DNA from: a virus
Virus record (IMG/VR): IMGVR_UViG_3300044647_000510
Coordinates: 1 to 31,379 of that record
DNA length: 31,379 bases
Reading direction: 5' to 3' (one strand)
This document shows positions 4,523 to 31,379 of the stretch, one piece after another. Position numbers and translations under genes: made by a program. How positions within the stretch are numbered: the first letter of the stretch is position 1; each line of letters begins with the position of its first letter. The notes under the pieces were generated by a model. The model was not told the DNA's origin. It did no database searches and saw only the letters and a list, made by a program, of their open reading frames with translations.

Positions 4523-5044
4523 ATGGTGTGGTCTGCCAGTGCGCCGTACAAGGCGGAGTCAAAGAAGGTGGTGTGGGAAGTTACCCCCTACCTGCGGGGC
4601 CGTGGCCTGGACATTGGTGCGGGCGACTTCAAGGTGCTGCCCCACGCTATTAGTGTGGACAATATGCACCACGCACAGTTTGGCTTTAGTGTTAGGCCAG
4701 ACATTATGTGCGAGGACGCTACCAAGCTGGACATGTTTGCAAGCCAAAGCATGGACTTTGCGTACAGCAGCCACACGCTGGAGCACATTACAGACTATGC
4801 AGCAGCACTCAAGGAGTGGTTCCGCGTGATCAAGCAGGGCGGATACCTGATTCTGTACCTGCCCGATGAGGACGAGTATCCCAAAGTTGGAGACCCAGGT
4901 GCCAACCCCGACCACAAGTGGAACGTGAACTACGACCGTGTGGTTGACGCCATGCGCCTTGTTGGTTCGTGGGACTTGGTGGACTTCCAAAAACGCAATG
5001 AAGACGACGAGTACAGTCTACTTTTCATATTCAAGAAGCTATGA
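4523..5044 (+). CDS. Class I SAM-dependent methyltransferase (Methyltransf_11-like)
   Basis: A 173-residue protein starting at ATG 4523, with GGAG ten bases upstream. It shows the class I order: motif I LDIGAGDF (residues 29-36, SAM binding), an acidic residue after the second strand (SVDN, 44-47), a post-strand motif SSHTLEHI (82-89) and the post-motif RVIKQGGYLILYLP (101-114). The segment DPGANPDHKWNV (about 123-134) resembles phage and sugar-biosynthesis methyltransferases rather than DNA methylases; no DPPY or NPPF motif is present. The acceptor is unknown. With a GT9 glycosyltransferase three genes downstream, a sugar or glycan acceptor is plausible. Its last four bases overlap the next gene (ATGA). 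Confidence 0.85.
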   Translation: MVWSASAPYKAESKKVVWEVTPYLRGRGLDIGAGDFKVLPHAISVDNMHHAQFGFSVRPDIMCEDATKLDMFASQSMDFAYSSHTLEHITDYAAALKEWFRVIKQGGYLILYLPDEDEYPKVGDPGANPDHKWNVNYDRVVDAMRLVGSWDLVDFQKRNEDDEYSLLFIFKKL

Positions 5045-5407: not shown

Positions 5408-5663
5408 AAAAGCCGACATGGCGTGCAATAAGCCTCAACGCACGCCGGGGCACCCCACCAAGAGCCACGTGGTAAAAGCGTGTTGGGACGGCAAAGAGAA
5501 GGTAGTTCGCTTTGGGCAACAGGGCGTTAGCGGTAGCCCAAGGAAAGAGGGTGAGTCTGAAGCCGAGCGCAAGCGCCGTGAGTCATTCAAGGCGCGGCAC
5601 GCTAAGAACATTGCCAAGGGTAAAGAGTCTCCAGCATATTGGGCAGATAAGGTGAAGTGGTGA
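5397..5663 (+). CDS. Conserved small phage protein of the CNKPxRTPGHPTKSHVVKA type
   Basis: An 88-residue basic protein starting at GTG 5397 with GAGGA upstream. The conserved features are an N-terminal CNKPQRTPGHPTKSHVVKA, then RFGQQGVSGSP, then SFKARHAKNIAKGKESPAYW and a WADKVKW end. I recognise this as a protein present in many tailed phages, often marine or freshwater, but without a known activity; the charge and invariant His/Arg residues suggest nucleic acid binding. It overlaps the preceding small gene by 11 bases and the next gene by seven, so it is embedded in a coupled run. Confidence 0.8.
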   Translation: MATKKADMACNKPQRTPGHPTKSHVVKACWDGKEKVVRFGQQGVSGSPRKEGESEAERKRRESFKARHAKNIAKGKESPAYWADKVKW

Positions 5664-6724
5664 GCAACAAATACACGCACAGATTCAGCTACAAGAACGA
5701 CAAGCCCGTAAAGACTGCTTGTGTGGTGCGCTACGGCGCTTTTGGCGATCTTATGCAGGCTAGCAGCGTGTGGGCTGGGCTCAGGGCGCAGGGCTATCAC
5801 GTCACGCTGTTCTCTAGTTTGCCAGGGGCTGACGTCGTACTACACGACCCCAACATTGACAACTTGGTGCTCTTCGACAAGGACCAAGTGCCCAACGGCA
5901 ACCTGATGGACTTCTGGAACTGGCAGAAAAAGAAGTTTGACAAGTGGGTGAACCTTAGTGAGTCGGTGGAGGGTACGCTGCTGGGCATGCAGGGCCGCAC
6001 GGTGGCACTGTACCCGCCCCAAGTTCGCCATAGCTTGATGAACAGAAACTACGTAGAATTTCAGCATGCTATTGCAGAAATTCCGTACTTCTTTAAGAGT
6101 AAGTTCTACCCCACAGCTGATGAAGTTAAGTGGGCCAAGCGAGAACATGCCAAGCTGGGTGAGGGGCCGGTGGTGGTGTGGTCACTAGCGGGGAGCAGTG
6201 TACACAAGACCTGGGCTGGCCTAGACAACGTGCTGGCTAGTATTCTTGTAGAGTTCCCCACCGCACGCGTGGTGCTCACCGGGGGACCTGACTGTGTATT
6301 GCTGGAGGCTGGTTGGGAGAACGAACCGCGCATCCTCAAAAAATCTGGAGTCTGGTCTATCCGTGAGACGTTGAGCTTCTGTCTTGAAGCAGATGTAATC
6401 ATTGGTCCTGAGACAGGAGCTATGAACGCCATGGCTTGCGAACCCATGGCTAAGGTGGTATTCTTGTCACACAGCACGCACGAGAACCTGACCCGTGACT
6501 GGGTCAACACCATCCCCCTCTGGAGCGAGAATACTACGTGCGCGGGCAGGGGCAGCAATGCGGCTCCGGCATGCCACCTACTACACTACAACTGGAACGC
6601 ATGCACTCGTGACGACGAGAGTGGCACTGCACAGTGTCAAAAAGATATCACCATTGGTCAAGCCTGGGGTGCGGTGTACAATGCACTGCGCGGCTGTGAG
6701 TCCGCACGACAGAAAGCAGCGTAA
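5657..6724 (+). CDS. Glycosyltransferase family 9 protein (heptosyltransferase-like)
   Basis: A 355-residue GT-B fold protein (GTG 5657; GTG 5660 is equivalent). The N-terminal domain opens with RYGAFGDLMQASS (residues 25-37), the GT9 glycine loop normally written GALGD. The C-terminal domain has WSLAGSSVHKTW (175-186), VVLTGGPD (205-212) and GPETGAMNAMA (250-260), matching the GT9 donor-site signature GxDSGxxH with Glu and Gly replacing the usual Asp-Ser pair. GT9 enzymes typically transfer heptose from ADP-heptose to LPS. Four cysteines at 295, 306, 316 and 327 could bind a metal. It sits between small phage proteins and head-completion genes, an unusual place. The heptose biosynthesis genes on the other strand give it a plausible donor. 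The acceptor (LPS, virion glycan or DNA) is unknown. Confidence 0.85.
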   Translation: MVSNKYTHRFSYKNDKPVKTACVVRYGAFGDLMQASSVWAGLRAQGYHVTLFSSLPGADVVLHDPNIDNLVLFDKDQVPNGNLMDFWNWQKKKFDKWVNLSESVEGTLLGMQGRTVALYPPQVRHSLMNRNYVEFQHAIAEIPYFFKSKFYPTADEVKWAKREHAKLGEGPVVVWSLAGSSVHKTWAGLDNVLASILVEFPTARVVLTGGPDCVLLEAGWENEPRILKKSGVWSIRETLSFCLEADVIIGPETGAMNAMACEPMAKVVFLSHSTHENLTRDWVNTIPLWSENTTCAGRGSNAAPACHLLHYNWNACTRDDESGTAQCQKDITIGQAWGAVYNALRGCESARQKAA

Positions 6725-18149: not shown

Positions 18150-21100
18150 ATGGCCGTGATGGACGAGCAACTAGATCCAGGCTATGAAACAGGCGAGGTA
18201 CCTCGCCGCCCTGACTCTCCGCTGGACGCCCCGTGGCGTCCAAGCTACATGCAGCCCATGGCACCCACTCCGCCGAGTGTGGTGCGTGCGCAGCCCACGC
18301 GTCCAGCCCCACCGGCCGAGATGCGTGAGTACCGCCCCACCACGCGGGAGCGTGACGCTGCCCGTGCACAGTCAGCACTAGAAGGGCTGGGCGTAGAGCG
18401 TGCTGGCGCACGCCGCATAGCACAGACCGTGTTGGGTGGTCCGCAAAGCAACCTGCCACTCGGCGCTGGGTTGATTGACGTACCCCTGCTGCCCGCGCTG
18501 CCCTACTTTATGGAAGAGGGCTACCGTAGCACCGAGCGTGCTGCCGGTGCCTTTGAGCGGGGAGACTACGGTACCGCCGCGCTGGAGTACCTTGGTGCCG
18601 TGGCGCAGACATCACCTGGAGCGTTTGCTGCCCGTGAGGTTGCCCCTGGCGTAGCCAAGGTGTTGAAGAGTGCGGGGGTTGCCCTGGGGGAGTCAATGGC
18701 TGCAAATGCGGTCACTTCTCCTATGGCGCGTGGGCAGCGTGGCACGTTTTTGCCAGAGACATTCTTCACCCCACAGGAAAAGGCCAAAATCAGCATCGCG
18801 CAGGAACTTGAGGCCAAGGGCACCTCCCCTGACGACGTACTGGTGCAGACCGGCTTGGTGCGTGACCTTGATGGCTCCTGGGCCGTTGAAATTAGCGACG
18901 ACAAGATGAAGTTCAAGGCTCTCGAGGCTGTCAAGGCCGCACGGGAGCCGATTGTGCAGCGCATCAGTGATATTGAAGTTGCCATGCAGGTCCGCGATAT
19001 TTTGGACCGTGGCGGCAGCATGGGCAACGCAGCACGTACTGTCCGCGTACAGACGGGGCAGGACCCATCCCCCAAGGCGCTGACGCTGGCGCAGCAGCGC
19101 ACAAACGAGCAGCTAGAGGCCGCACTACAGAACGCCAACAATAGCTTGACTGCGCCCATCAAAGGCTTGAAGTACGCCGATGTAATTGAGCACCCAGAGC
19201 TGTTCCAGCGCATCCCCGAGCTGGCGGAGATGCAGGTTGACTTCGTCACGCAAGCTGACTTGGGCAAGCGTGTAGCCGGTCACTTTGACCCTAGCGCCCC
19301 CGGCATGGGGGCTATCAGTGCGAGGGCACAGTACCTCCGCCCCGGTGAGGAGTATGGGCGCAGTTTGTTTGCGCACGAGACGCAGCACGCCATTGACTAT
19401 GCGTCTGGTAAAGACTACGGCATATCACCAGATACGATTAAAGAAGCGGGCGATAGCTGGAACCTTCGGCTCGAGGGTGATAAGATAAACTTTGATGCGG
19501 ATGCCACAGCTCTTCAAGCTCGTCGGCTAATGGATAAAACTCCGGGCATGACCCCCGAGCAAGCTCTTGATGAAGTAGTTGATAGGGCTAATTATTACGG
19601 AATAGCTGAAAATTTTGGAGCTGCCGGGAAATACAATCCCGAAAATGAAGGCACATTTGCGCAAGACGGAATGCTGCGGGACGCCACGCTTAGGATAATT
19701 AGAAATGTGCCGCTAGACCCACTTAAGCAACGTGTGGACGCAGCACAGGCTCGGCTTAGAGAAGCGTACCAAAAGGCCAGGATTGCCGAGCCAACCGAGG
19801 CTGGTAGATACGAGCAGTACATGAGCAACGTGGGCGAGGCCCGCGCCCGCCTGACGCAAACCCGCCTGGACCTCACGCCCGAGGAGCGCAGGGACATATT
19901 CCCGATGCGCGAAGGCATGATGGCGCTTGACCGCCCGCCCGAAGCGTTGAAGACGATTAGTGAGTTGACTGGTGGGCTGTACGGACCCAAGCAGGTAGCC
20001 GCCCCGGCTGCCAGCATGGCCCCTGAGCGCTCACTGCGCGAGGTACTGGAGGACGAGCCCTACACCCTCCGCACGCTGGAGAACCTACCGGGTAAGCGGA
20101 CCATGATCCCCATGTCCGAAATCCGCGACCAAATGCGCCGCCCCGAGGTCACCAAGGCCGAGAAGGATGTGCTGGAGCGCGTGCTTGCCCGTACTGAGGG
20201 CGACAGTATCTCTGCTGAGGACCTCGTGCGCGAGGTGGGGTTGGAAACCAAAGATTTCCGCCTTACGCCCAAGGATACTGATGATTTTGCCGACTATGGG
20301 CTGCAAAGCATTGGTAGAGATGCCACGCCAGCGGACTGGACTGGTGGTATGAGTCAGCCCAACGCACAGAACGCACGTACCACTATCCACCGCAGCCCCA
20401 CACCTACGGCAACGAACAATCACTTCCGTGATCCCAACTACTTCGGCCATATTAGGGCGTTTGAGGATGAGGTAGGCATCCCCCATGTGGTGGAGATTCA
20501 GTCAGACCTTGTGCAGAAAGCAGGCAAAGAACTGTCAGAAGAAGATCGCACACGCTTGCAGAGCGCCTTTGACAGCGTAGTGGCGCAGGAGAATGTTATT
20601 GAGCCGATACTTGGGCGGATTGGTGGAAGGGACAGTATTGCATGGGCGAGCTCTGCGGCAAATGACATCTTGCAAAACCAAGAGAAGTTGCTGCAAGCCA
20701 ATCCGGACTTTTTAATGCTACTGGAGGAAGAGATTGCCAGCAAACTGACAACGGATGCAGTAGCTGAGATTGGTTCCCTCGGGGCTCTTGAAAATGAAGG
20801 TGATTTGCTACGGCACATTGCAACGATACAGACTAGACCTGGGGCTGGACTACCCAATATAAGGCATGTTAGTCTCAGTTTAGCCCTGGAGGAGTCGCTG
20901 AAAGATGTCCGTAGAAGACTAAGTCTTCTAGCCAGCGAGCACGGTGCTAAGTTGGAGGAAGGTGCGGCAGCCACCGCGCAGCGCCCCATGTTCAAGAACT
21001 GGGAGCGCCGCTTGATCCGCGAAGAGTTGAGCCGTGCTGCCACGCCGCAGCTTAACCCTGAGTACGAAAGTCTGCGCAACCGAGCAAAGTCTGCGCTCAA

Positions 21101-21803
21101 GTACGTAAAGCAGGTAGAGGACTCCTACGTCGAGCAAGGATTCAACCGCAACGATAGAATGATAGCTGCTGTTACCGCCCCGCACAGGAAAGAGGCTGAG
21201 GAATTTGCACGGCGGGCGCTTGAGGTTGAGCAGTACAAGCCCGTCCCCTCAGTGGTCCGGTTTGCGGACGCTGACACCGTGGCGCTGGTGGAGGGCTGGG
21301 AGCGTAAGATGGAATATGTCCCCGGCACGGCTAAGGACTCCGCGCTGAAGGGCCTACGAGTCCCTGGCACTAACGTAGGCACTTCCAACGATTGGGAACT
21401 CACCGGCATGGTGCGTATGGACGCTGACGGCGCGTGGTACATGGAAAGAGTGCCCGTGGACGTTAGTGGGCGTCCTATGGGTGATTCTGATTGGGCGCGT
21501 AGCCCCTCTGTTTGGACGTATAGCGGATCTTCCCGCATCAGTCCAGAAATAGTCGACCGTTTCGTCAAACGCACGGATAAGTTTGAGTACCCCGAGCACC
21601 AAGGCATCTACGACCGCTACAAGAAGGAAGTGACCAACTACCTCAAGTCACTCGGTGGTAAGCAGGTTAAGGACCAGTACGGCCACTCTTGGTGGGAAGT
21701 ACCCGTTGACCCCAAGAAGGCCAAGCGCACTCAACTATTTAGCATGGGTGGGGCGGTTGCGGCGGGCGGTGCTGCCACGTACAATGCTGACGAAGAACAG
21801 TGA
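18150..21803 (+). CDS. Large polyvalent protein with zincin-like metallopeptidase domain
   Basis: A 1217-residue protein (GAGGGG before ATG 18150). The N-terminal third is Pro/Arg-rich, then helical with hydrophobic Ala stretches, as in ejection proteins. A metallopeptidase-like domain is visible: LKYADVIEHPELFQRIPEL (about residue 345) leads to SLFAHETQHAIDYASG with HETQH at 409-413, an HExxH zinc motif. This matches the LPD type found in large polyvalent proteins of phages and plasmids. The second half has conserved LPP segments: EIQSD (782-786), SVVRFADADTVALVEGW (from 1034) and a C-terminal YKKEVTNYLKSLGGK followed by WWEVPV. Proteins of this class are thought to be injected with the DNA to act in the host. 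The substrate is unknown. Ordinary catalysis at HETQH is inferred from the motif only. Confidence 0.75.
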   Translation: MAVMDEQLDPGYETGEVPRRPDSPLDAPWRPSYMQPMAPTPPSVVRAQPTRPAPPAEMREYRPTTRERDAARAQSALEGLGVERAGARRIAQTVLGGPQSNLPLGAGLIDVPLLPALPYFMEEGYRSTERAAGAFERGDYGTAALEYLGAVAQTSPGAFAAREVAPGVAKVLKSAGVALGESMAANAVTSPMARGQRGTFLPETFFTPQEKAKISIAQELEAKGTSPDDVLVQTGLVRDLDGSWAVEISDDKMKFKALEAVKAAREPIVQRISDIEVAMQVRDILDRGGSMGNAARTVRVQTGQDPSPKALTLAQQRTNEQLEAALQNANNSLTAPIKGLKYADVIEHPELFQRIPELAEMQVDFVTQADLGKRVAGHFDPSAPGMGAISARAQYLRPGEEYGRSLFAHETQHAIDYASGKDYGISPDTIKEAGDSWNLRLEGDKINFDADATALQARRLMDKTPGMTPEQALDEVVDRANYYGIAENFGAAGKYNPENEGTFAQDGMLRDATLRIIRNVPLDPLKQRVDAAQARLREAYQKARIAEPTEAGRYEQYMSNVGEARARLTQTRLDLTPEERRDIFPMREGMMALDRPPEALKTISELTGGLYGPKQVAAPAASMAPERSLREVLEDEPYTLRTLENLPGKRTMIPMSEIRDQMRRPEVTKAEKDVLERVLARTEGDSISAEDLVREVGLETKDFRLTPKDTDDFADYGLQSIGRDATPADWTGGMSQPNAQNARTTIHRSPTPTATNNHFRDPNYFGHIRAFEDEVGIPHVVEIQSDLVQKAGKELSEEDRTRLQSAFDSVVAQENVIEPILGRIGGRDSIAWASSAANDILQNQEKLLQANPDFLMLLEEEIASKLTTDAVAEIGSLGALENEGDLLRHIATIQTRPGAGLPNIRHVSLSLALEESLKDVRRRLSLLASEHGAKLEEGAAATAQRPMFKNWERRLIREELSRAATPQLNPEYESLRNRAKSALKYVKQVEDSYVEQGFNRNDRMIAAVTAPHRKEAEEFARRALEVEQYKPVPSVVRFADADTVALVEGWERKMEYVPGTAKDSALKGLRVPGTNVGTSNDWELTGMVRMDADGAWYMERVPVDVSGRPMGDSDWARSPSVWTYSGSSRISPEIVDRFVKRTDKFEYPEHQGIYDRYKKEVTNYLKSLGGKQVKDQYGHSWWEVPVDPKKAKRTQLFSMGGAVAAGGAATYNADEEQ

Positions 21804-22476: not shown

Positions 22477-22835
22477 ACTGGTCAGACTACCCCAATTTCA
22501 CCGAGGCTGAGTTCCGCTGCCGCCACTGCGGCAAGCAGGAGATGCGGCCCGAGTTCATGGGCCGGCTTCAGGCACTGCGGGATGTCTACAAGCGCCCCAT
22601 GACCATCACCAGCGGCTACCGCTGCCCTGACCATCCGGTGGAGAAGGCCAAGGCCGAGCCTGGGATGCACTCCACCGGTTTGGCCTGCGACGTTGGCGTG
22701 CAGGGCGCTGACGCACATGAGCTGCTGCGCTTGGCGATGCACTTGGGCTTTACCGGCATCGGCGTGCAGCAGAAAGGCGCGGGACGGTTTATCCACCTGG
22801 ATCTGCGCACGCAGCCGACGGTGTGGTCGTACTAG
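22473..22835 (+). CDS. Endolysin, peptidase M15A-type (cell-wall peptidase)
   Basis: A 120-residue protein beginning at ATG 22473 (ATGA overlap). It carries the M15 signature: FRCRHCGKQEM near the N-terminus (residues 14-24, with two Cys typical of phage and prophage members), TITSGYRCPDHPV (44-56), the first zinc ligand in GMHSTGLACDVGV (His66 and Asp73) and the second ligand FIHLDL (His108, Asp110). Members cleave peptide cross-bridges of peptidoglycan (L-alanyl-D-glutamate peptidase or D,D-carboxypeptidase type). The small globular size without a cell-wall binding domain is typical of Gram-negative hosts. No signal peptide is present, so it relies on the holin upstream. Confidence 0.9.
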   Translation: MNWSDYPNFTEAEFRCRHCGKQEMRPEFMGRLQALRDVYKRPMTITSGYRCPDHPVEKAKAEPGMHSTGLACDVGVQGADAHELLRLAMHLGFTGIGVQQKGAGRFIHLDLRTQPTVWSY

Positions 22836-23068
22836 CGGCCAATTTCTTTGAGTAGTCTGGGCCCTGCTGAGTAGAACAATATCTGCTTGGTGGCGCGGGT
22901 GGGGTTAGGCCGCTTCGTACAAGTAACCCACCCCTTAACCTCCGCGTACTTGAGCGTCTTGTTGACGTTGTTGGGGTCTACACTCCAGCGTAGTGCAATC
23001 TCTTGTGAGGTAAGTTCGCTGCCTGGGTGAGTGGCAAGGTACACGCAAACCGGCGTTACTAGGCTCAT
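22832..23068 (-). CDS. Winged-helix DNA-binding protein, putative regulator
   Basis: A 78-residue protein from ATG 23068; a GTG at 23080 would add four residues and has no clearly better ribosome site. The body has a helix-turn-helix pattern: ELTSQEIALRWSVDPNNVNK (recognition helix), then the wing TLKYAEVKGWVTCTKRPN and a strand ending LFYSAGPRLL. The size and layout suggest a small transcription factor or a DNA-binding auxiliary. It is the last gene of the minus-strand run, after gmhB with a 54-base gap. Its stop codon shares the sequence CTAG with the stop of the endolysin on the other strand. Confidence 0.65.
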   Translation of the reverse strand: MSLVTPVCVYLATHPGSELTSQEIALRWSVDPNNVNKTLKYAEVKGWVTCTKRPNPTRATKQILFYSAGPRLLKEIGR

Positions 23069-23122
23069 GCAGCCACCCACACCGCTGGCACATGCCCATG
23101 GGACCTATCAGAAGCCCCGTGG

Positions 23123-23638
23123 CTACGTTTTTGCAGGTGGGGTAGGGCTAGGGTAGCGGGGGCGGTACCACGCGGCCCAGGAGCCGTCTTTTGGCACACG
23201 GATACACTTACCAACGCAGGGCACCATGTCACTTTCTTTATCTCCAAACATTAGGCTCTCGGCCAAGTCAATGTCAAAATCACGGGCTGCGCGCTCAAAC
23301 ATGGCGGTTCCAGGCTTGCGGCAAGTGCAGCCAGCGTCTGGCGTGTGCGGGCAGTAGTACGCAGCCGTGATGTACACGCCGTGCTGCCCCAGTAAGTCCA
23401 ACATGCGGCGGTGCACCGCAGTGTACTGCGCCTTGGTTATCCGCCATCGGCCAATGCCGCTCTGATTGGTGACTACGATTAGCAGGTATCCACAATCAAT
23501 TAGATTGCGTAGAGCAGGTACCACCCCCGGCAGTAGTTCTACTTGCGTGGGGTCATTCAAGTAGGGAACGTCCCGTATTAGGGTTCCGTCCCTGTCAAGA
23601 AATGCTGCTCGATTCTCCGCCACGGATGCGACGCTCAA
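23123..23638 (-). CDS. gmhB: D,D-heptose 1,7-bisphosphate 7-phosphatase (GmhB-like)
   Basis: A 171-residue HAD phosphatase of histidinol-phosphatase/GmhB type. Motifs: AAFLDRDGTLI (11-21, nucleophile Asp15 and acid Asp17), VVTNQSGIGRW (55-65), the zinc loop CPHTPDAGCTC (96-106; Cys96, His98, Cys104, Cys106) and RKPG, then FGDKESDM (131-138). All catalytic and zinc ligands appear intact. The enzyme removes the C7 phosphate from heptose 1,7-bisphosphate, here presumably the beta anomer, after the HldA kinase step. The start is uncertain: TTG 23638 is used, which overlaps the upstream gene by 44 bases; GTG 23623 (16 residues before the catalytic block ends) is another choice, and neither has a strong ribosome site. 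Confidence 0.88.
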   Translation of the reverse strand: MSVASVAENRAAFLDRDGTLIRDVPYLNDPTQVELLPGVVPALRNLIDCGYLLIVVTNQSGIGRWRITKAQYTAVHRRMLDLLGQHGVYITAAYYCPHTPDAGCTCRKPGTAMFERAARDFDIDLAESLMFGDKESDMVPCVGKCIRVPKDGSWAAWYRPRYPSPTPPAKT

Positions 23639-24026
23639 GTATGGTGGTGCTAATGTCTGGCACGCGGGGCAGTACAGTCACTGCTACGTTCCTGCTGAGC
23701 AGCCACTGCCCCTCGGCGCTGTGAGCAACGTCGCACTCACTGTCCTTTACATAGATGTCAGGTATTGTGCCCAGCGTGCTCCAGTACTCAACGGGGTTAG
23801 GGCCGTTGAATATGTGTACGTTCGCCACGCAGCGGAGAGCTTCCAGCACGCGGCGGCGGTAGGCCTCGGGTACTATGGGGCGGTGGGTACCCTTCAAAGC
23901 GCGGACGCTTGCGTCACTGTTCATGAATACGGTGAGCGTGCCCAGTTTGGCCGCACGTTCAAGGAACATGACATGCCCCGCATGTAGTAGGTCAAAGCAT
24001 CCATTAGTCCAAACACGGGCATTCAC
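23595..24026 (-). CDS. hldC: Heptose-1-phosphate adenylyltransferase (HldC/RfaE2-like)
   Basis: A 143-residue cytidylyltransferase-like (HxGH) protein. Motifs: TNGCFDLLHAGHVMFLERA (residues 7-25, HAGH at 15-18), MNSDASVRALKG (35-46) followed by RPI, and PDISTTILERRI near the end (123-134, ISTTIL type). The family normally has KGGDY around residue 94; here it reads VKDSECD, a local divergence. These proteins form ADP-D-glycero-beta-D-manno-heptose from ATP and heptose 1-phosphate. The start is GTG 24026, overlapping the gmhA stop as GTGA with GAGG seven bases upstream. The closest host proteins are the C-terminal domain of bifunctional HldE; here it is separate from the kinase. Function is inferred from family and neighbours. 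Confidence 0.85.
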   Translation of the reverse strand: MNARVWTNGCFDLLHAGHVMFLERAAKLGTLTVFMNSDASVRALKGTHRPIVPEAYRRRVLEALRCVANVHIFNGPNPVEYWSTLGTIPDIYVKDSECDVAHSAEGQWLLSRNVAVTVLPRVPDISTTILERRIRGGESSSIS

Positions 24027-24577
24027 TGCAAGGCCTCCTCAATCATCTGGCAAAGAATATGTCCCACTAGAATATGACACTCCTGAATACGTGCGGTGTC
24101 TGTGCTGTCAACGCACAAGGCATGGTCGGCAACCCGCCCCAACGCTCCCTCGTTGCGCCCAGTGAATGCTAGCACAGTCACGCTCAGCGCCCCGGCAATC
24201 TCTGCTGCGTTGACCACATTGGCGCTGTTGCCACTGGTGCTGAAGCACAGCAGCACATCACCCTCACAGGCCAGCGCGTCCACTTGGCGGGAGAACACTG
24301 ACTCAAATCCGTAGTCATTGCCCACAGCGGTGAGTATGGATGTGTCTGTAGTCAGCGCCACGGCGGCGTAGCCGCCCCGCTCCCGCTTAAAGCGGCCCAC
24401 CAATTCTGCCGCAATGTGTTGACAATCCGCCGCGCTGCCACCGTTGCCACACAGGTAGATGGTGCCACCCTGAGCAATACAATCGATCAGCACCTGTGCC
24501 ATCGCGTTGATGGTGTTTTCCTGCTCCAGCAGAGCACTTACAGCTGAGTTGTGCTGTTCAACAATCTTGGCAAGCAT
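24023..24577 (-). CDS. gmhA: Sedoheptulose 7-phosphate isomerase
   Basis: A 184-residue SIS-domain protein. Signature CGNGGSAADCQHIAAELVGR (residues 43-62), then TDTSILTAVGNDYGFE, STSGNSANVVNAA (113-125) and the end motif CHILVGHILCQMIE (167-180) with His168 and His173 as in the catalytic region of the family. The enzyme converts sedoheptulose 7-phosphate to D-glycero-D-manno-heptose 7-phosphate, the first step of heptose synthesis. The ATG at 24577 has AGGAG-type purines upstream (GAGGAGATTGAAG) and lies inside the end of the kinase gene (40-base overlap), so translation is probably coupled. Confidence 0.92.
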   Translation of the reverse strand: MLAKIVEQHNSAVSALLEQENTINAMAQVLIDCIAQGGTIYLCGNGGSAADCQHIAAELVGRFKRERGGYAAVALTTDTSILTAVGNDYGFESVFSRQVDALACEGDVLLCFSTSGNSANVVNAAEIAGALSVTVLAFTGRNEGALGRVADHALCVDSTDTARIQECHILVGHILCQMIEEALQ

Positions 24578-25449
24578 TCTTCAATCTCCTCTCGAGTAAT
24601 CACAGCCGTGCCTACGTGGCGCGTTGCAAGGGCACCGGCCACGCTACCACGCAAACAGGCGTCGTACAGCGGTAGTTCCTCTGCTAAACCCACCGCCAGA
24701 GCAGCCAAATAGCTATCGCCGGCACCAGTGGGGTCAACACACTGCACGGGCAGGGGCGGAACATGGCGTGTATCGGTCCACGAGACGCAGCCAATGATTT
24801 CTGACCCAGCGCCGCTCGCTGTTTTTATCAAATTGGCGAAGTTATGCTCCGCTGGTATTCTGTACTGTGACATACCCACCGCCTCCACCTCAGCCGCATT
24901 GGCCTTGACGTAGGTGGCATTTTCATACCTACCCCAGTTGGAGCCCTTGGGGTCTACCAATGTGATGCGCCCGTAGGCACACGCGTCAAGCATTGCGTCT
25001 ACATGCCGCAGAGCGCCCTTACCATAGTCACTAAATACGACCACACCGTACTCGTCAAACAGATCGTTGAGCGCGTCGTTCATGCGCTCAGCCTCTGGCT
25101 CGCTGAGTATGTGGTCCTCGTCAATGCGGGCACGCACCACACTGTTGACAAACAGGCGCGTCTTGGTGGTGGTGCGCTCCACCGGGCAGGCTTGGTACAG
25201 CAGGTCGCTGCTAGTGAGAATATCTAGCAGCGATGTTCCAGCCACATCCTGCCCCACGGCGGTGAGCAGCTTAACGTCTCCACCCATAGCCTTGATGTTC
25301 AAGGCTACGTTGGCAGCGCCTCCGGCGTAGCACTGTTCGTGGTCTACGTCGTAAATGGGGATGGGTGCCTCTGGGCTTATGCGCGTGACCTCGCAGTCAA
25401 TGCGCACGTCCAGCATGCTGTCACCCACCACTAGAATCTTTTTTGACAT
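24538..25449 (-). CDS. hldA: Heptose-7-phosphate kinase (HldA/RfaE1-like, PfkB family)
   Basis: A 303-residue PfkB/ribokinase-fold protein. Motifs: VVGDSMLD (7-14) followed by RISPEAPIP (23-31, as in HldE kinases), YAGGAANVALNIKAMGG (41-57), DYGKGAL (141-147), VDPKGSNWGRY (165-175), KANAAEVEA (182-190) and the anion-hole motif DPTGAGDSYLAAL (239-251, Asp245 as base). It phosphorylates D-glycero-beta-D-manno-heptose 7-phosphate at C1. The usual LVTRGExGM strand is replaced by a divergent segment (about 210-225), so confirmation is desirable. AGGAGG lies six bases before ATG 25449. This is the N-terminal half of host HldE as a separate protein. Confidence 0.88.
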   Translation of the reverse strand: MSKKILVVGDSMLDVRIDCEVTRISPEAPIPIYDVDHEQCYAGGAANVALNIKAMGGDVKLLTAVGQDVAGTSLLDILTSSDLLYQACPVERTTTKTRLFVNSVVRARIDEDHILSEPEAERMNDALNDLFDEYGVVVFSDYGKGALRHVDAMLDACAYGRITLVDPKGSNWGRYENATYVKANAAEVEAVGMSQYRIPAEHNFANLIKTASGAGSEIIGCVSWTDTRHVPPLPVQCVDPTGAGDSYLAALAVGLAEELPLYDACLRGSVAGALATRHVGTAVITREEIEECLPRLLNSTTQL

Positions 25450-25639
25450 TCTCGGCCTCCTGTGTGAGTTGCACTACCTCGCGGCGCAGGCGAGCAATGC
25501 GGCGAATGAGCATTTCTTCCATTGCGGAATAGTACTCTCGCTGCTCTACGGCTGTCAGCCGGTTACGCTCGGCCTCCTCCAACGCGGCGGCTGCGATACG
25601 CAACGGGCTTGGCTTGCGGAACGGGTTGAAATCTATCAT
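25421..25639 (-). CDS. Small helical phage protein (72 aa), unknown function
   Basis: A 72-residue protein starting at ATG 25639, seven bases after GGAG. It begins MIDFNPFRKPSPLRIAAAAL and continues as a single charged amphipathic helix (EEAERNRLTAVEQREYYSAM and further), likely coiled coil. I recall similar NPFRKPSPL openings in small proteins of other phages. It overlaps the kinase gene by 29 bases and the preceding small gene by 77, which is high but in line with the compact packing here. No activity can be suggested. Confidence 0.6.
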   Translation of the reverse strand: MIDFNPFRKPSPLRIAAAALEEAERNRLTAVEQREYYSAMEEMLIRRIARLRREVVQLTQEAENVKKDSSGG

Positions 25640-25811
25640 CTATCATCTCCACTGCAACGTGATTTTTGAGAGCTGGCAATAGCCCCTTGGCGGCTGCTAG
25701 GGCATCGCGGCGGGAGGCACCCTGCACCGTGCCCATGCGTTCTGCTACAACGTGCACGCTCCCCTCAGGGGGGATGTGCCGCCGCATGTAGTACACCTGA
25801 TATGTCTTCAT
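25563..25811 (-). CDS. Small phage protein (82 aa), unknown function
   Basis: An 82-residue protein from ATG 25811. The first 55 residues have regular beta/alpha alternation (YQVYYMRRHIPPEGSVHVVA, then RRDALAAAKGLLPALKN) that looks like a folded small domain; the last 25 residues are Arg/Pro-rich and lie in the overlap with the next gene. The ribosome binding site is weak. It follows the DUF3310 gene after an 88-base gap (25812-25899) in which no feature is clear. The long overlap means either this C-terminus or the neighbouring start could be misassigned. Confidence 0.5.
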   Translation of the reverse strand: MKTYQVYYMRRHIPPEGSVHVVAERMGTVQGASRRDALAAAKGLLPALKNHVAVEMIDDRFQPVPQAKPVAYRSRRVGGGRA

Positions 25812-25899: not shown

Positions 25900-26367
25900 C
25901 TAGTCGCCTTGGTTAACGTAGCCCTGCCCAGTAGGGCACGCGCCGTGGGCTTGGTGGGCGTCCTCTAGCGTCGCAGCCCGTACCATAGTGCCGCAGTGCC
26001 TGCAACGGTAGTGCTGGGTGAGGTCGCCGTAGTAGCCCTCGCACTGCCAGTCGTCATTGCTAAGGATCTCAGCAGCCTGCTGGCGGATGGGTACGGGCAC
26101 CGTGCCCAGTTCCTTGCTCTCTACAGGCTGGGGCGCGTCGTACTGCTCGGCAACTTCGATGTACTTTTGCAGAAAGTGCGCAGCCTTCTTCAAGTCCTCA
26201 AGTCGCCTTTCATACGTGGCGTGCTTGTGCTTCCAGCGCATAAGGTACTTGGTGACTTGATACTGGAAGGGGTCCCACTGGTACATGACGGCCAAGTCCC
26301 AATGCTGGAGCTTCTGCCCATGCGTGCGGTAATGGTCTCCGCCCACTTGCTTCTCATTTGCGCTCAC
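25900..26367 (-). CDS. DUF3310 family protein with C-terminal zinc-ribbon-like region
   Basis: A 155-residue protein starting at GTG 26367 (GTGA overlap with the preceding gene's stop; GGAG nine bases upstream). The N-terminal half matches DUF3310: QVGGDHYRTHGQKLQHWDL (7-25), then YQVTKYLMRWKHK and RRLEDLKKAAHFLQKYIE. DUF3310 includes the region related to T7 gp1.7, a nucleotide kinase, and is common in phage nucleotide-metabolism operons. The C-terminal part (about 115-145) adds a small metal-binding-like motif, YRCRHCGTMV followed by a His/Cys pair (HQAHGAC). The role is probably in nucleotide or DNA metabolism; the substrate is unknown. Its position after a thymidylate synthase homologue fits. 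Confidence 0.8.
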   Translation of the reverse strand: MSANEKQVGGDHYRTHGQKLQHWDLAVMYQWDPFQYQVTKYLMRWKHKHATYERRLEDLKKAAHFLQKYIEVAEQYDAPQPVESKELGTVPVPIRQQAAEILSNDDWQCEGYYGDLTQHYRCRHCGTMVRAATLEDAHQAHGACPTGQGYVNQGD

Positions 26368-27338
26368 TTGATCTCTCTCCTTTCACACCACTGTTGAAAA
26401 CCCAACTTCCAATCACACTCTGGCACGTTGCTGATGTCGTAACTTTCGCCAGTCTTACGGGCCAGGTACGCATCACGCAAGGGCGCAGCCACCCTATCCA
26501 TGAAAACCGTGTCCATGGCGCGGAACCCGTTAACAATCCGCTCACAGTCATCGAGGAAGTGCTGCCACGTTTCCTTGCCAGAGATGAGTGGGAGCGCCAC
26601 TGCACTGCCTGCCGCGTAGTAGTCAAAGCCTCCCACGGGCGGATAGCGCAGGAAGTCCTTAACCTTGTCGTTGTCTGTGTAGGCGTGCCAGTTGTTGCTG
26701 AACTGCCGGTACACTCCCACGGGCACCCCCACGGCGTGAGCAATTACCTCCTGCAACACGCTCATGTGCACGGCGTTGGCTCCGTAGCAGCCCCACAAAA
26801 TGTCGTTGCTGCGGCAGGTCACCGTCATGTTCAACTTGCCGCCACGGCAGTCAAAGTAGATAGCGGTGTTACAGGGTCTGTCCCGCCACGCGCCTTCCAG
26901 GTCCGCGGTGGGGTCCCACATCTGCAACACGGCTTGTCTGCTCTGCGGGTTGGTGCGCAGCATGTTGATGATGGCGGGCAGTTGGTCGTACATGCCGTCA
27001 TTAAACCAGTTGCGCCAGCGTGCTCCATACGCCCCGTGGATGTAGCCGTCAGGCTCCGCGTAGGTGCTGATGTTGCTGCTGAATTGGCTGAGCCACTCTA
27101 CGTCACTAAGCCCAGCCAGCATCCAAATAGATTCCATCAAGTGGAATACGTGGTTGGCGTCGCGCCGGGGGCTGAACAACACCCGCTCCATGGGGCGCAG
27201 GTAGGTAGTCACCACCGGGGTGGGGGCAACCATAACGGGTCCGTTACGGCTGGGCTCCTCCACGCCAGCAACGCTCAGGTAATGCCACGCGGAGTCAAAC
27301 GCATCGTTCACATTGTTTTCAGTTATGGAGTGGATCAT
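26364..27338 (-). CDS. Thymidylate synthase family; possible dUMP hydroxymethylase
   Basis: A 324-residue protein (GAGGA before ATG 27338). Key residues align with E. coli ThyA: PCN at 155-157 gives catalytic Cys156 (ThyA Cys146); RSND 176-179 corresponds to Arg166/Ser167/Asp169; Asn188 to Asn177, the residue that selects dUMP over dCMP; and His218/Tyr220 to His207/Tyr209. ThyA has His after the catalytic Cys, but this protein has Asn157. Family members either make dTMP (thymidylate synthase) or 5-hydroxymethyl-dUMP (dUMP hydroxymethylase), and the residues visible here do not separate these. The adjacent HMUDK-like and TAGT-like genes favour hydroxymethyl-dUMP production for DNA hypermodification. 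The gene is coupled to both neighbours by short overlaps. Confidence 0.85.
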   Translation of the reverse strand: MIHSITENNVNDAFDSAWHYLSVAGVEEPSRNGPVMVAPTPVVTTYLRPMERVLFSPRRDANHVFHLMESIWMLAGLSDVEWLSQFSSNISTYAEPDGYIHGAYGARWRNWFNDGMYDQLPAIINMLRTNPQSRQAVLQMWDPTADLEGAWRDRPCNTAIYFDCRGGKLNMTVTCRSNDILWGCYGANAVHMSVLQEVIAHAVGVPVGVYRQFSNNWHAYTDNDKVKDFLRYPPVGGFDYYAAGSAVALPLISGKETWQHFLDDCERIVNGFRAMDTVFMDRVAAPLRDAYLARKTGESYDISNVPECDWKLGFQQWCERREIK

Positions 27339-28143
27339 ATCTGTTCCTCACATGTCCGTTCATGTACTTGACCTTGCACCACTTGCTGAACTCGCACAAG
27401 CAGTTTTGGAAGTCTTGGTCACTAATGCGTGGCACCTCTGGCCGCACAAGTGGGTCAACCTCATGCCTGCAAGCACGCAGAGCGTGCCTGTATTCTCTAG
27501 GAGTTATTGATTGAATATTGTTCAGCATTGCCTCCTTATTGAAGTACCAGCTCAACCCCCGCAGGCTACCCGGCCCAGGCGCTGACCATGTCCACCAATC
27601 AGGTGCGTCGTGCAGGGGGTGGCCGTGAGTATTCTTCATGTCAGCAACCACTTGCCCTGCTAGAAAACTGCCCAGCCCATCTACAACTTCCAAGCTAGCG
27701 GCAGCGTAGGACAGCCCACTGTAGTTAAGTTCTGCAGGGGTGCCGCCCACAACATGATCAAATACATAGTCCAGCTTATCCATGCTGCGCCCACACGTAC
27801 TGATGGTGTACGCACTGGTGAACACCTTGTGTCCCTGGGCAACGCGCTTTTTCAGCACATCTTTCATCTGCCAGGGGAAGTCACAGTATAGCAACTGCTC
27901 AAGGCTCTCAGGCAGGTTGATCATGCGGCCCACCACAAACCGCCAAGCGGGGTCGGTACCACGGTTCCAATACTTGCGGATCCAACGGGTTACCTTATCG
28001 TCTTCCCGGTGTACGTTGCAGAACCGCACAGTGTTGAATACGGGGTCCTTGCTCCACGGTGGAGTGTCCTTTGCCTCCTTGGCGAGCTTGATGCGGTGGC
28101 GCTCGTTTATCCAGTAGGCAAGTTCATGCGTTAGATGCAGCAT
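27319..28143 (-). CDS. Base-hypermodification protein, HMUDK helical domain type
   Basis: A 274-residue protein resembling the 5-hmdU DNA kinase helical domain/aGPT-pyrophosphorylase family (PF18723 type). Recognisable segments: YWINERHRIKL (10-20), VRFCNVHREDDKVTRWIRKY (39-58), FTSAYTISTCGRSMDKLDYV (108-127), GLGSFLAGQVVADMKNT (156-172) and GPGSLRGLSWYF (190-201), then EFSKWCK. There is no P-loop (GxxxxGKS/T) anywhere in it, so this protein alone is unlikely to be the ATP-dependent kinase. Family members act in pathways that further modify 5-hydroxymethyluracil in phage DNA. Its location between a thymidylate synthase homologue and a TAGT-like glycosyltransferase fits such a pathway. The exact reaction is unknown. 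Confidence 0.75.
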   Translation of the reverse strand: MLHLTHELAYWINERHRIKLAKEAKDTPPWSKDPVFNTVRFCNVHREDDKVTRWIRKYWNRGTDPAWRFVVGRMINLPESLEQLLYCDFPWQMKDVLKKRVAQGHKVFTSAYTISTCGRSMDKLDYVFDHVVGGTPAELNYSGLSYAAASLEVVDGLGSFLAGQVVADMKNTHGHPLHDAPDWWTWSAPGPGSLRGLSWYFNKEAMLNNIQSITPREYRHALRACRHEVDPLVRPEVPRISDQDFQNCLCEFSKWCKVKYMNGHVRNRYDPLHN

Positions 28144-28912
28144 GCTGTCTCGCTTTCTTCCAGTACACCACTACATCGGTACGGGTGCCACCACCCCAAG
28201 CGGTCTTGGTTTCTTTCTCCACTACACTGACGTAGGGCTTGTGCAGCGCAGCAAGCAGATGCGCTGCCTCGGCCTGGAGCGCCATGGTGCGGTAGCTAGA
28301 GCAGCCACCGGGGGCGTCACTACCCTCGGCTTGGTTGTTGCACCAGTTGTTGAGCACCAGCGTGTCCTTGCCAGATTTAAGAATCTGCAAGCTAACGTGG
28401 AAGTCTTCCATCACGGGCATGGGGGCAAACGTGATGTTGTGGGTGCGGAGGTAGTGCCTGTCATACCCCAGCACGCGCATGATGCGCGTGTTGAGCATCA
28501 CTTGTTCCGTATTACGGTTGCCACCCTCCCGTGGAGCGATGCCCACGTGGGGGTAGAGGTCTAGCCTGCCCTCAATCTGATCTAGCATGCGGCGCAGTTC
28601 AAACGGTGCCAGGGCGCGGAACTTGGTGGGTTCGTCCACGCGGCGGGCAAAGAAGTGCAGGTCATCATCAAGCATGACAACAAAGCGCTCCTTCCAAATA
28701 TCGCTGTGTATCAAGTAGTCCCGTGTGGGGGCTACGGTTTGGATGTGCGGCGGCAGCACGTGCACGGGCCCGTCGTACCACGCGTACTGAGTGTGCTCAC
28801 GGTGCTGCACAACTAGAACAGGCAGCACGCCCTCGGCTCTAAGAGCACGGAGGGTATGCTGCCTGTCTTGTTGTGGACGCCCGTATGTTGGAATAAGGAC
28901 GTCCATGGCCAT
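28124..28912 (-). CDS. TAGT-like GT-A glycosyltransferase, candidate DNA glycosyltransferase
   Basis: A 262-residue GT-A-like protein. Motifs: VLIPTYGRPQQDRQHTLRAL (residues 5-24), VLPPHIQTVAPTRDYLI (52-68), VVMLDDDLHFFARR (78-91) with the metal-binding DDD at 82-84, HVGIAPREGGNR (122-133), VMEDFHVSLQILKSGKDTL (167-185), GGCSSYRT (202-209) and a conserved end VEKETKTAWGGGTRTDVVV (231-249) before WKKA. I recognise this order from the TET-associated glycosyltransferase (TAGT) family, proposed to glycosylate hydroxymethylated bases in phage DNA. The donor is unknown. It starts at ATG 28912, sharing TGATG with the preceding stop; ATG 28906 is a second option. Assignment to TAGT is from memory of the family. 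Confidence 0.75.
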   Translation of the reverse strand: MAMDVLIPTYGRPQQDRQHTLRALRAEGVLPVLVVQHREHTQYAWYDGPVHVLPPHIQTVAPTRDYLIHSDIWKERFVVMLDDDLHFFARRVDEPTKFRALAPFELRRMLDQIEGRLDLYPHVGIAPREGGNRNTEQVMLNTRIMRVLGYDRHYLRTHNITFAPMPVMEDFHVSLQILKSGKDTLVLNNWCNNQAEGSDAPGGCSSYRTMALQAEAAHLLAALHKPYVSVVEKETKTAWGGGTRTDVVVYWKKARQHAASNA

Positions 28913-29376
28913 CAGTCGATGGTCTCTTCAACCGCTACGTCGTCAACGGAGGCAGGGGCTGCCTCAGCGGTGGCGGCCTTGGCCTTCTTACCACGGGGGG
29001 CCTTGGGCTCCTTAGGAGCCTTTTCTGCCTTGGGGGCACGCTCCTTCTTCAACACCAGCTTGGGGTCGTACCCCTCAATGGCGATAAAGCCGTGCGCGGC
29101 ATCGTACACGAGGTTGGGGGTGGCGGCTTGGCCTACGGCGTCAAGGAACTGCTGCACCGTCATCCCGTCCACGTACTGCGCAAATGCGTCGTGCGCCTTG
29201 CTGCCCGGACGCTTGGGGTTGCCCTCAACCTTGAGGCTGATAATGGCGTCCAGCGCCACGCCCTTGGGGCCACGAGCGCCCACGGGAGCACCCGGTGCGT
29301 TCTTGGGTGCAGCCGGTGCGTCTGCCGCTGCGGAGGTAGAAGTCTCAACGGACTCCACTTGCTTCTTCTTAGCCAT
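28912..29376 (-). CDS. Possible separate C-terminal product from internal start (154 aa)
   Basis: An in-frame ATG at 29376 (Met164 of the longer frame) is preceded by AGAAGG at 29387-29392, ten bases upstream, a better ribosome site than many true starts here. The product starts MAKKKQVESVETSTS and has an Ala/Pro/Lys-rich linker, a compact region of about 70 residues (GVALDAIISLKVEGNPKRPG onward) and a basic Ala/Lys-rich end. I recall similar stand-alone phage proteins with NPKRPGS and GMTVxxF motifs. Whether both forms are made cannot be seen; the alternative is a genuine fusion with an internal methionine by chance. Confidence 0.5.
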   Translation of the reverse strand: MAKKKQVESVETSTSAAADAPAAPKNAPGAPVGARGPKGVALDAIISLKVEGNPKRPGSKAHDAFAQYVDGMTVQQFLDAVGQAATPNLVYDAAHGFIAIEGYDPKLVLKKERAPKAEKAPKEPKAPRGKKAKAATAEAAPASVDDVAVEETID

Positions 29377-29865
29377 GTTGGCTTTTCCTTCTAAAACGAA
29401 CGTTGGCACGGGGCGGCGTGTCCAACTACTTTGCTCTACCTTCCGCCCCAGGTAGTATGCTCGGTAAGCAGCAACGCTGTCACCGGCAATTTTGAACTCG
29501 TCTGGCATAGCCTGCGGTGGCTCAGTCCACAGGAGGGGCATTCCAGCTCCCCTGCCTGCTGCCGCAGCACGATAGATGATTTCTAAGCTGCGATGCTCCT
29601 TACCGCTGTAGCGGTAAGCGTACTCAGCCGCCAAAGCGCGGGCGTGCGTCACCAGCCACGTGAAGTTGTACAGCCCATCTCCCGCCCACAGCACGCTGGG
29701 GTGCCGTGGATGCGTGGGCTTGTACATATTCTCTTGCCACAGGCCGTGGCGATGACACACTGTACTGAGAATTTGAGCGCTTTCTAGAATCATCTTCACG
29801 ACATGCTTGTCGTGCATAATCTTAGCAGCAGCTTCTGGATCTCTGTCGAGATAAAAGACGTTCAT
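28912..29865 (-). CDS. Two-part phage protein: conserved MNxFYLDxDP domain plus C-terminal module
   Basis: A 317-residue frame. Residues 1-158 match a widespread phage protein of unknown activity: MNVFYLDRDPEAAAK, DKHVVKMILESAQILST (19-35), YKPTHPRHPSVLW (48-60), EPPQAMPDEFK (115-125), AYRAYYLGRK and a W-x-R-R-P-P ending. In other phages this is usually a stand-alone protein ending near that point. From Met164 the sequence changes to an Ala/Lys/Pro-rich linker, then a small domain (VEGNPKRPGSKAHDAFAQYV, then DGMTVQQFLDAVG, about 224-256), and a Lys/Ala-rich tail. Met164 has its own AGAAGG site, so both a fusion and a shorter C-terminal protein may be made. Function unknown; neighbours suggest DNA metabolism. 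Confidence 0.7.
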   Translation of the reverse strand: MNVFYLDRDPEAAAKIMHDKHVVKMILESAQILSTVCHRHGLWQENMYKPTHPRHPSVLWAGDGLYNFTWLVTHARALAAEYAYRYSGKEHRSLEIIYRAAAAGRGAGMPLLWTEPPQAMPDEFKIAGDSVAAYRAYYLGRKVEQSSWTRRPVPTFVLEGKANMAKKKQVESVETSTSAAADAPAAPKNAPGAPVGARGPKGVALDAIISLKVEGNPKRPGSKAHDAFAQYVDGMTVQQFLDAVGQAATPNLVYDAAHGFIAIEGYDPKLVLKKERAPKAEKAPKEPKAPRGKKAKAATAEAAPASVDDVAVEETID

Positions 29866-29959: not shown

Positions 29960-31351
29960 CTATTGGCGTTTCATGCTCTTCAATAGGGTAAGGAAGTTGC
30001 TCTGCGTTGCGTCCTTGTTGTTGAGTACACGGAGCACACGCTCGTCCACAGTTTCTTTGGCAATGATACGATGTACAATCACCGTGTCGGCTTGCTGGCC
30101 TTGACGCCAGATACGGTCGATGGTTTGGCTGTAGTCTTGCAAGTTCCACGTAAGCCCGAACATGATTACGTTGCGGCACTTGTTCTGCAAGCCGTCAATG
30201 CCAAGGCTGATGCTAGTGAACTGCCCCAGCCCCATCTGCACAAATCCGCCCGCAAACAGGCCGATGTGTTTGGCATCCTGCGCGGCATTGCCCCCAGTGA
30301 GCAGCACCGCGTTGGGGAAAGCTTTGCGCAGCTTGTCTAGGTCTGGCTTGAACTCGTACACCACCAGCACACTCTCCCCGCTGAGCTCCTCAACCAAGTC
30401 TTTGAGTGCGTCTACCTTAGCGTCGTGCAGGTCAGTCCAGGTGCCGTCGCCCGCGTTGGTGAACAGGCACCCATTGGCTATCTGCCTGCACTTGCTTGTA
30501 GCGACAGCCGCATTGGCAGCCACCACCAGCTCTGCGTCTAGAGTGGCAAGCATGTGGGCCTCCATCTGGTCGTACTGCTTGCGGGCGGTGGGGGGTAGGT
30601 CAACCAGCACATCGTTAAAGATGAGCTCTGGCATATCAAGATTGCCCTCGCGGTCAAGCACCAGGGTAAGGGGCTCTATTTTGCTGGCAATCTCTTCCAT
30701 CGCCCACGCGTGCGGGGCTAGATTGTAGCCCATGTAGTCAGTGGGGTAGAAGTATTTGGTCTTGTAGTGGGTGATAAAGCGCCCCAGCGCAGCGCCCTCG
30801 TCTAGCAGGTAGACCTGCCCAAACAGGTCCATCAATCCATTGGGGGTGAACGTACCAGTGAGGATATACCGGCGCTTGAAGTGTTGGATGAACTTGCGCA
30901 CCCGCTTGAACCGTTGCGTGCCCGTGTTCTTGAACTTGGTGGACTCATCAATAATGAGCACATCAAAGTGCTGGCGCATCCAAGCAAGGTTCTCTGGTGT
31001 GTCAAGCCACTCCAGCCCCTCGGGGTTTATGCAGTAGATGTCGGCGTCAAGGTCGTGCAGGTTGTCTAGCCGATGCTTACCGTGCAGCACCTTGACGCGT
31101 AGGTCAGCAAACTCGGCCCAATCATTCTTCTGCTTGGGCCAGACGTTGTACACCACTCGCAGCGGGGCTATCACCAGCGTGCGCTTGATCAAGCCCTTGC
31201 TCTTCAATATCTTGATTATCGCATAGCTGATAGTAGTCTTGCCCATGCCGGGTCGTAAAAGAAACCCAGCGCACGCCTGCGAGACTCCTAAGCGCACCGC
31301 TTGCTCTTGATAAGAGCGCGGCTTCCAAGAACGCAATTCCGTCGTCGACAT
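29960..31351 (-). CDS. SNF2/DEAD-like helicase (superfamily II)
   Basis: A 463-residue protein with an ATG at 31351 and AGGAG nine bases upstream; an in-frame TTG at 31357 would add two residues. Helicase motifs in order: a Q-like PRSYQEQAV (11-19), Walker A RPGMGKTT (33-40), motif Ia IAPLRVV (61-67), motif II DEST (135-138) in VLIIDESTKFKN, motif III LTGTFTPNGLMDLFGQ (164-179), and the second RecA domain ending with WNLQDYSQTIDRIWRQGQ, the SNF2-type motif VI. This places it in the phage SNF2-like helicase group, used in replication, recombination or DNA remodelling. The C-terminal region has no extra domain. It is the first gene seen of the minus-strand transcript; upstream genes are outside the window. 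Confidence 0.88.
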   Translation of the reverse strand: MSTTELRSWKPRSYQEQAVRLGVSQACAGFLLRPGMGKTTISYAIIKILKSKGLIKRTLVIAPLRVVYNVWPKQKNDWAEFADLRVKVLHGKHRLDNLHDLDADIYCINPEGLEWLDTPENLAWMRQHFDVLIIDESTKFKNTGTQRFKRVRKFIQHFKRRYILTGTFTPNGLMDLFGQVYLLDEGAALGRFITHYKTKYFYPTDYMGYNLAPHAWAMEEIASKIEPLTLVLDREGNLDMPELIFNDVLVDLPPTARKQYDQMEAHMLATLDAELVVAANAAVATSKCRQIANGCLFTNAGDGTWTDLHDAKVDALKDLVEELSGESVLVVYEFKPDLDKLRKAFPNAVLLTGGNAAQDAKHIGLFAGGFVQMGLGQFTSISLGIDGLQNKCRNVIMFGLTWNLQDYSQTIDRIWRQGQQADTVIVHRIIAKETVDERVLRVLNNKDATQSNFLTLLKSMKRQ

Positions 31352-31379
31352 TGTCAATCACTCCTACAGGGATGCCCTG

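Follow-up and report, generated by a model that had tools for sequence, protein, structure and literature searches.

An ADP-heptose cassette encoded next to a predicted uracil-type DNA-modification module suggests a route to heptosylated phage DNA

The viral record IMGVR_UViG_3300044647_000510 carries a compact set of four genes of the ADP-heptose pathway (HldA, GmhA, HldC and GmhB), and this cassette shares a gene run with a DNA glycosyltransferase of the TAGT family, with HMUDK_hel, the helical partner of 5-hydroxymethyldeoxyuridine (5-hmdU) DNA kinases, and with a thymidylate synthase (TS) of the dUMP-hydroxymethylase type. The original prediction had described the heptose genes and overlooked these neighbours, which suggest that the sugar is meant for phage DNA rather than for host lipopolysaccharide (LPS) or general auxiliary metabolism. 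On balance, we slightly favor a role of the cassette in supplying the ADP-D,D-heptose donor with which the phage heptosylates its own DNA. The window analyzed is the entire record, which is 31,379 bases long, linear and probably a fragment, and absences from it are provisional.

The ADP-heptose cassette

The four genes of the cassette lie on the minus strand in the following order.

24538..25449, minus strand: HldA-like D-glycero-beta-D-manno-heptose-7-phosphate kinase (PfkB), 303 aa; TIGR02198, 2e-57; PDB 4e84, 2e-38
24023..24577, minus strand: GmhA sedoheptulose-7-phosphate isomerase, 184 aa; NF010546, 3e-59; PDB 1tk9, 6e-55
23595..24026, minus strand: HldC-like heptose-1-phosphate adenylyltransferase, 143 aa; TIGR02199, 1.6e-30; PDB 5x9q
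23123..23638, minus strand: GmhB-like heptose-1,7-bisphosphate 7-phosphatase (HAD), 171 aa; NF006506, 1e-40; PDB 3l8e/2gmw (E. coli GmhB)

The coordinates agree with the overlaps first described, of 40 bases for HldA/GmhA, 4 for GmhA/HldC and 44 for HldC/GmhB, the last of which assumes that GmhB starts at a TTG codon, with an alternative GTG possible five codons later. When each protein was searched against hidden Markov models, as had been proposed, a heptose family was the top NCBIfam match for all four, though every score fell under the curated equivalog cut-off, and from these matches we take the four proteins to be diverged members of their heptose families. Among solved structures, those closest to HldA, GmhA and GmhB are heptose enzymes, and the one closest to HldC (5x9q) is a putative cytidylyltransferase. 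The separation of HldA and HldC into two genes, which had been singled out as noteworthy, turned out not to be unusual, as the top structural matches are also stand-alone HldA and HldC-type proteins, each with a single domain.

Alignment with the E. coli enzymes bore out the claim that the core motifs are intact in all four proteins. The GAGD motif of HldA and the NGCFDLLHAGH (HxGH) and STT motifs of HldC align with E. coli HldE; GmhA retains GNGGS, the Glu of AEL and the RIQE..H...H block; and GmhB retains FLDRDGT (DxD), TNQSGI, the Cys/His residues of the zinc site (CPH...CxCRKP) and GDK..DM. Moreover, the ratios of nonsynonymous to synonymous substitution rates against the related contig G003 were 0.19 for HldA, 0.15 for GmhA, 0.09 for HldC and 0.07 for GmhB, so the cassette genes are under purifying selection. 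A GDP-heptose branch was rejected, in line with the original prediction, as HldC has a cytidylyltransferase-like fold and HldA is of the PfkB type; the heptose enzymes of the GDP branch have other folds. A search for the Pfam Epimerase family (PF01370), the fold of HldD, found no match in the window and none in nine related contigs, themselves possibly fragments, and because HldD was not found the expected product is, as had been anticipated, the D,D-form, ADP-D-glycero-beta-D-manno-heptose. A search for the cassette at the DNA level in phage records gave no match.

The DNA-modification module and the partners of HMUDK_hel

Upstream of the cassette, and in the same direction, lies a second group of genes. 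These are listed below together with the small open reading frames (ORFs) that flank the cassette on either side.

29960..31357, minus strand: SNF2-type helicase, with a conserved place shortly before the module
28912..29865, minus strand: p624, phrog_624 DNA-binding protein with a Pyr_excise-like N-terminus; first gene of the tight run
28124..28912, minus strand: TAGT glycosyltransferase, candidate DNA heptosyltransferase; PF20691, 1e-19; phrog_842, 9e-42
27319..28143, minus strand: HMUDK_hel, helical partner of 5-hmdU DNA kinase, no P-loop; PF18723, 1e-29; aligns with gp55 of phage M6
26364..27338, minus strand: TS, thymidylate-synthase-fold enzyme, predicted dUMP hydroxymethylase; phrog_5131, 2e-97
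25900..26367, minus strand: p155, small conserved phage protein (PHROG label nucleotide kinase) that usually accompanies TS and HMUDK_hel
25563..25811, minus strand: small ORF, 82 aa; contig G005 has a MKTY...MRRHIPP ORF resembling it in the matching position
25421..25639, minus strand: small ORF, putative protein, overlapping HldA by 29 bases
22832..23080, minus strand: small winged-helix-like ORF after GmhB; MarR_2, 5e-6, just under the cut-off

The genes between p624 and p155, which include TAGT, HMUDK_hel and TS, each overlap the next by 1-20 bases; a single 88-base gap follows p155, after which two small ORFs and the four heptose genes overlap again, the overlaps of the whole run spanning 1-77 bases. 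Module and cassette are arranged in one direction and likely form one transcript; a promoter search found no good signal, the consensus scan being no better than chance. TAGT scored 71.7 bits against PF20691 (gathering cut-off 27.5), and its DDD motif is invariant across 39 sequences. In p624 (28912-29865, minus strand), which directly precedes TAGT, the N-terminus resembles a pyrimidine-dimer glycosylase and the tail is rich in Lys and Ala.

TS shares 45% identity, across 98% of its length, with gp58 of Pseudomonas phage M6, and has Asn where the MilA-type CMP hydroxymethylase has Asp. The similarity to gp58 and this uracil-type Asn favor dUMP over dCMP as the substrate, a base specificity that we read from alignments with MilA and TS proteins; hydroxymethylases and thymidylate synthases are, however, difficult to distinguish by sequence (PMC5977210). 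Phages of the M6 type are described as using their own deoxyuridylate hydroxymethyltransferase, together with a 5-hmdU kinase, to hypermodify thymidine (PMC11946847). No match to a P-loop 5-hmdU DNA kinase (PF18748 type) was found in the window or in five related contigs; TAGT stands in its place. Neither the alpha-glucosyltransferase (alpha-GT) nor the beta-glucosyltransferase (beta-GT) was present among the ORFs of the window, a partial contig, scanned against Pfam or PHROGs, and the contigs bearing hld genes showed no nucleotide-sugar pathway besides that of ADP-heptose. In contig G005 (L180:9633-10001) a MazG-like nucleotide pyrophosphohydrolase (phrog_671), absent from that place in the window, sits between HMUDK_hel and TS.

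The replacement of the kinase by TAGT extends well beyond the window. HMUDK_hel proteins clustered at 85% identity gave 87 viral clusters, in which the partner was a kinase in 31, TAGT in 50, another protein in 2, unresolved in 4 and both in none; this sample was seeded by TS and TAGT and so does not give population frequencies, but within it kinase and TAGT exclude each other. In the contigs obtained from the TS scan a P-loop protein nearly always overlaps the start of HMUDK_hel, and one such upstream protein matches PF18748, the 5-hmdU DNA kinase. Of the 82 TAGT loci (80 viral ones and two in phage records), 73 have HMUDK_hel and TS in addition, and a kinase was found in none of the 82. A relative, contig G007, whose capsid protein is 89% identical, has the kinase, HMUDK_hel and TS and lacks TAGT and GmhA. 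The simplest reading is that HMUDK_hel recognizes 5-hmdU in DNA and pairs with either a kinase or a glycosyltransferase. The exclusion of kinase and TAGT turns the role of HMUDK_hel into a testable prediction.

Two further observations concern the gene slot next to HMUDK_hel. In M6, gp54 (L257:6707-7270) is a P-loop protein adjoining HMUDK_hel that is annotated as a terminase small subunit and has the same motif as the P-loop kinases; it is probably a 5-hmdU kinase, and the terminase label, which also appears in phrog_800, an annotation error. In contig G024 (L268:9288-11566) the slot is filled by a radical-SAM/SPASM protein and a 452-aa protein, possibly a third kind of HMUDK_hel partner.

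Distribution and history of the cassette

The complete cassette was found in the lineage of the window and in G003, G004/G005, G006, L308 and L358, in every case a short way after HMUDK_hel, TS and p155 in the gene run. Contig L357 also has it, but is cut upstream. The gene order of the window recurs in G001, G003, G004/G005, G006 and L308, with HldA identity down to 49% in G006. Counted by HMUDK_hel cluster, the full cassette occurs in 5 of the 87, in which the partner is TAGT or another protein, and in no kinase cluster. L358 is the case with another partner: its gene order is the same, but an unrelated protein replaces TAGT before HMUDK_hel. A distant relative of this protein is encoded near the TS gene of E. 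coli phage IME392.

The GmhA proteins of the cassettes form one clade (support 99/96), and repeated independent gain of the cassette was rejected on this ground. The TAGTs that accompany hld genes, in contrast, fall into two separate, well-supported clades, so the transferase was swapped at least once while the cassette was kept beside the DNA module. The TAGT of G006 is 67% identical to that of L308 and 41% to that of the window, and the SNF2 proteins of G006 and the window share 79%.

A scan of bacterial genomes with the capsid protein found relatives in Paraburkholderia, Pseudothauera, Bradyrhizobium and others, mostly proteobacterial records. HMUDK_hel was not found in 12 of the capsid-matching genomes, a weak negative as PF18723 gave nothing in the controls either, and one unrelated TAGT was present among those 12. 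Elsewhere in the window, positions 16970-18139 (plus strand) encode a conserved 389-aa protein with a PurD/ATP-grasp-like N-terminus, which is also found in relatives and has no Pfam match even at an E-value of 10, and positions 18150-21803 (plus strand) encode a 1217-aa large polyvalent protein with an LPD23 domain (PF18838).

Destination of the sugar and comparison with known systems

The gene identities, motifs, selection, partner exchange and co-retention described above can be joined into a scheme. The TS-like enzyme would convert dUMP into 5-hydroxymethyl-dUMP, which would enter phage DNA instead of some of the thymine; GmhA, HldA, GmhB and HldC would turn the sedoheptulose-7-phosphate of the host into ADP-D-glycero-beta-D-manno-heptose; HMUDK_hel would act as an adaptor that binds 5-hmdU in DNA and presents the base; and TAGT, occupying the slot of the P-loop 5-hmdU kinase of related phages, would move the heptose onto the hydroxyl. 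This would yield 5-(heptosyloxymethyl)-deoxyuridine, similar to base J with heptose replacing glucose, and DNA so modified may be shielded from host nucleases. The evidence speaks for a role of the heptose genes in DNA modification, and the use of ADP-heptose by TAGT is what we infer from it. In its full form, the proposal of a phage lineage whose DNA contains 5-(D,D-heptosyloxymethyl)uracil, with self-supplied ADP-heptose and with TAGT replacing the 5-hmdU kinase as the partner of HMUDK_hel, is tentative, and we lean slightly against it. If it is true, HMUDK_hel would be a general base-presenting subunit that accepts different modifying enzymes.

Several observations weigh against heptosylation of DNA. 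To our knowledge, the ADP-heptose transferases all belong to GT9 (GT-B), whereas TAGT is GT-A/GT2-like. The characterized TAGT, that of T6, has a GT-A fold (PMC13216743) and uses glucose (PMC13216743, PMC13390438). The full cassette is lacking in 46 of the 50 TAGT clusters, and a GmhA-type domain is absent from 27 of 28 other TAGT contigs; TAGT alone therefore does not imply heptose, and phages without the cassette may use a nucleotide sugar of the host. No convincing residue signature separates the TAGTs with and without the cassette. For the protein in the TAGT slot of L358, neither Pfam nor PHROGs gave a match, and hhalign found no similarity to the E. coli transferases. In L272 (14531-15010) a GmhB-like phosphatase follows TAGT, HMUDK_hel, TS and p155 alone, without HldA, GmhA or HldC, and may be a remnant or have a different function. 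Finally, because the cassette GmhA proteins form one clade, the cassette looks like a single acquisition kept over a long divergence, and its linkage to the module like retention and not repeated gain.

Another protein of the window could be the main rival user of ADP-heptose.

5657..6724, plus strand: GT9/heptosyltransferase-like protein, structural region

GT9 is the family that usually uses ADP-heptose. Although the protein has no Pfam match, its family profile aligns with E. coli WaaF/C/Q/U (hhalign probability 97, E-value 4e-11), it matches a GT9 chain (PDB 3tov, E-value 0.009), and the gene is present in the contigs bearing hld genes. The cassette might thus feed this protein, which would heptosylate a virion protein or a surface glycan of the host, while a separate DNA module works on host UDP-glucose. 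However, the gene is part of the structural module and distant from the cassette, which follows the TS/HMUDK_hel module. Moreover, its conservation extends to 76 viral contigs, among them G007 (55 kb) and G019 (42 kb), which lack GmhA. A GT9-like gene tracking the cassette was rejected, given its occurrence far beyond it, and we regard this alternative as unlikely. In G007 and G019 the GT9-like protein is fused to a methyltransferase-like domain (L262:16143-17717); in the window, a separate methyltransferase ORF (4523-5044) lies beside it.

The four enzymes might also make another activated sugar for DNA modification, such as a pentose, another sugar phosphate or a CDP-sugar, as their scores under the equivalog cut-offs would allow. 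There are precedents in RB69, where a protein with a sugar-isomerase domain is proposed to supply UDP-arabinose (PMC6024577), and in Thanatos, which makes UDP-pentose (PMC12838424). Nevertheless, the heptose families are the best matches by wide margins for all four enzymes, and the set fits the heptose pathway down to the 1,7-bisphosphatase, which is unnecessary for the pentose routes; we consider this alternative improbable. We give equally little credence to the possibility that the heptose genes alter host LPS during infection, through superinfection exclusion or more core heptose, as is assumed for cyanophages. The heptose genes of cyanophage SynMITS9220M01 are called LPS-related (PMC7378029), and in many other phages GmhA stands beside surface-sugar genes of the gmd/fcl/glf type. 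In the contigs bearing hld genes, however, neither a surface-sugar gene nor HldD was detected, and every complete cassette with upstream sequence follows the DNA-modification module. The LPS core of the E. coli type uses L,D-heptose.

Sugars on phage DNA (glucose in T-even phages, arabinose in RB69, pentose in Thanatos) and heptose genes in cyanophages are already known. Heptose on DNA, or an ADP-heptose cassette tied to 5-hmdU, is unreported in the literature searched, a scope that excluded Iyer 2013 and Lee 2018. A 2026 study found TAGT without alpha-GT or beta-GT in 288 of 753 phage genomes bearing glycosyltransferases and called its function undefined (PMC13216743). If heptosylation of DNA is true, it would offer an answer to the function of the solitary TAGT, extend the known DNA decorations to a seven-carbon sugar and provide a bacterial-virus counterpart of base J. 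Base J is eukaryotic, carries glucose and is formed after replication by way of the JBP1/2 hydroxylases. The predicted product of the window is likewise a glycosylated 5-hydroxymethyluracil (PMC4150806).

The window is similar to the thymidine hypermodification system of phage M6 (5-hmdU kinase leading to 5-NedU) in its neighboring homologs of TS, HMUDK_hel and p155, but TAGT replaces the P-loop 5-hmdU kinase, the group added by M6 is an amine, and the stretch of M6 examined has no annotated heptose genes. With the T-even phages, which carry glucosylated hydroxymethylcytosine, and T6 in particular, it shares the TAGT family (PF20691) and a phage pyrimidine hydroxymethylase (PMC13390438, PMC13216743). 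The TAGT of T6, however, adds a second glucose to glucosylated hydroxymethylcytosine from host UDP-glucose, whereas the window has 5-hmdU as its predicted acceptor, its own donor pathway, no alpha-GT or beta-GT among the scanned ORFs, and Asn in TS instead of the cytosine-type Asp of the T-even dCMP hydroxymethylase. A full four-gene set had been thought to lie far beyond the phage norm, but multi-gene heptose sets were already known: SynMITS9220M01 encodes a heptose kinase and a phosphoheptose isomerase, like the window, and in addition an epimerase, in an LPS-related set for which no link to DNA modification is reported (PMC7378029). LPS-type sugar genes on viral contigs should not be equated with auxiliary metabolism unless their neighbors are checked. 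Finally, the arabinosylation of RB69 and the pentose modification of Thanatos resemble the window in that an unusual sugar nucleotide for DNA is supplied by enzymes of the phage itself (PMC6024577, PMC12838424), but these systems place a pentose on cytosine with other enzyme families, whereas in the window a uracil-type module is joined by a complete set of heptose genes.

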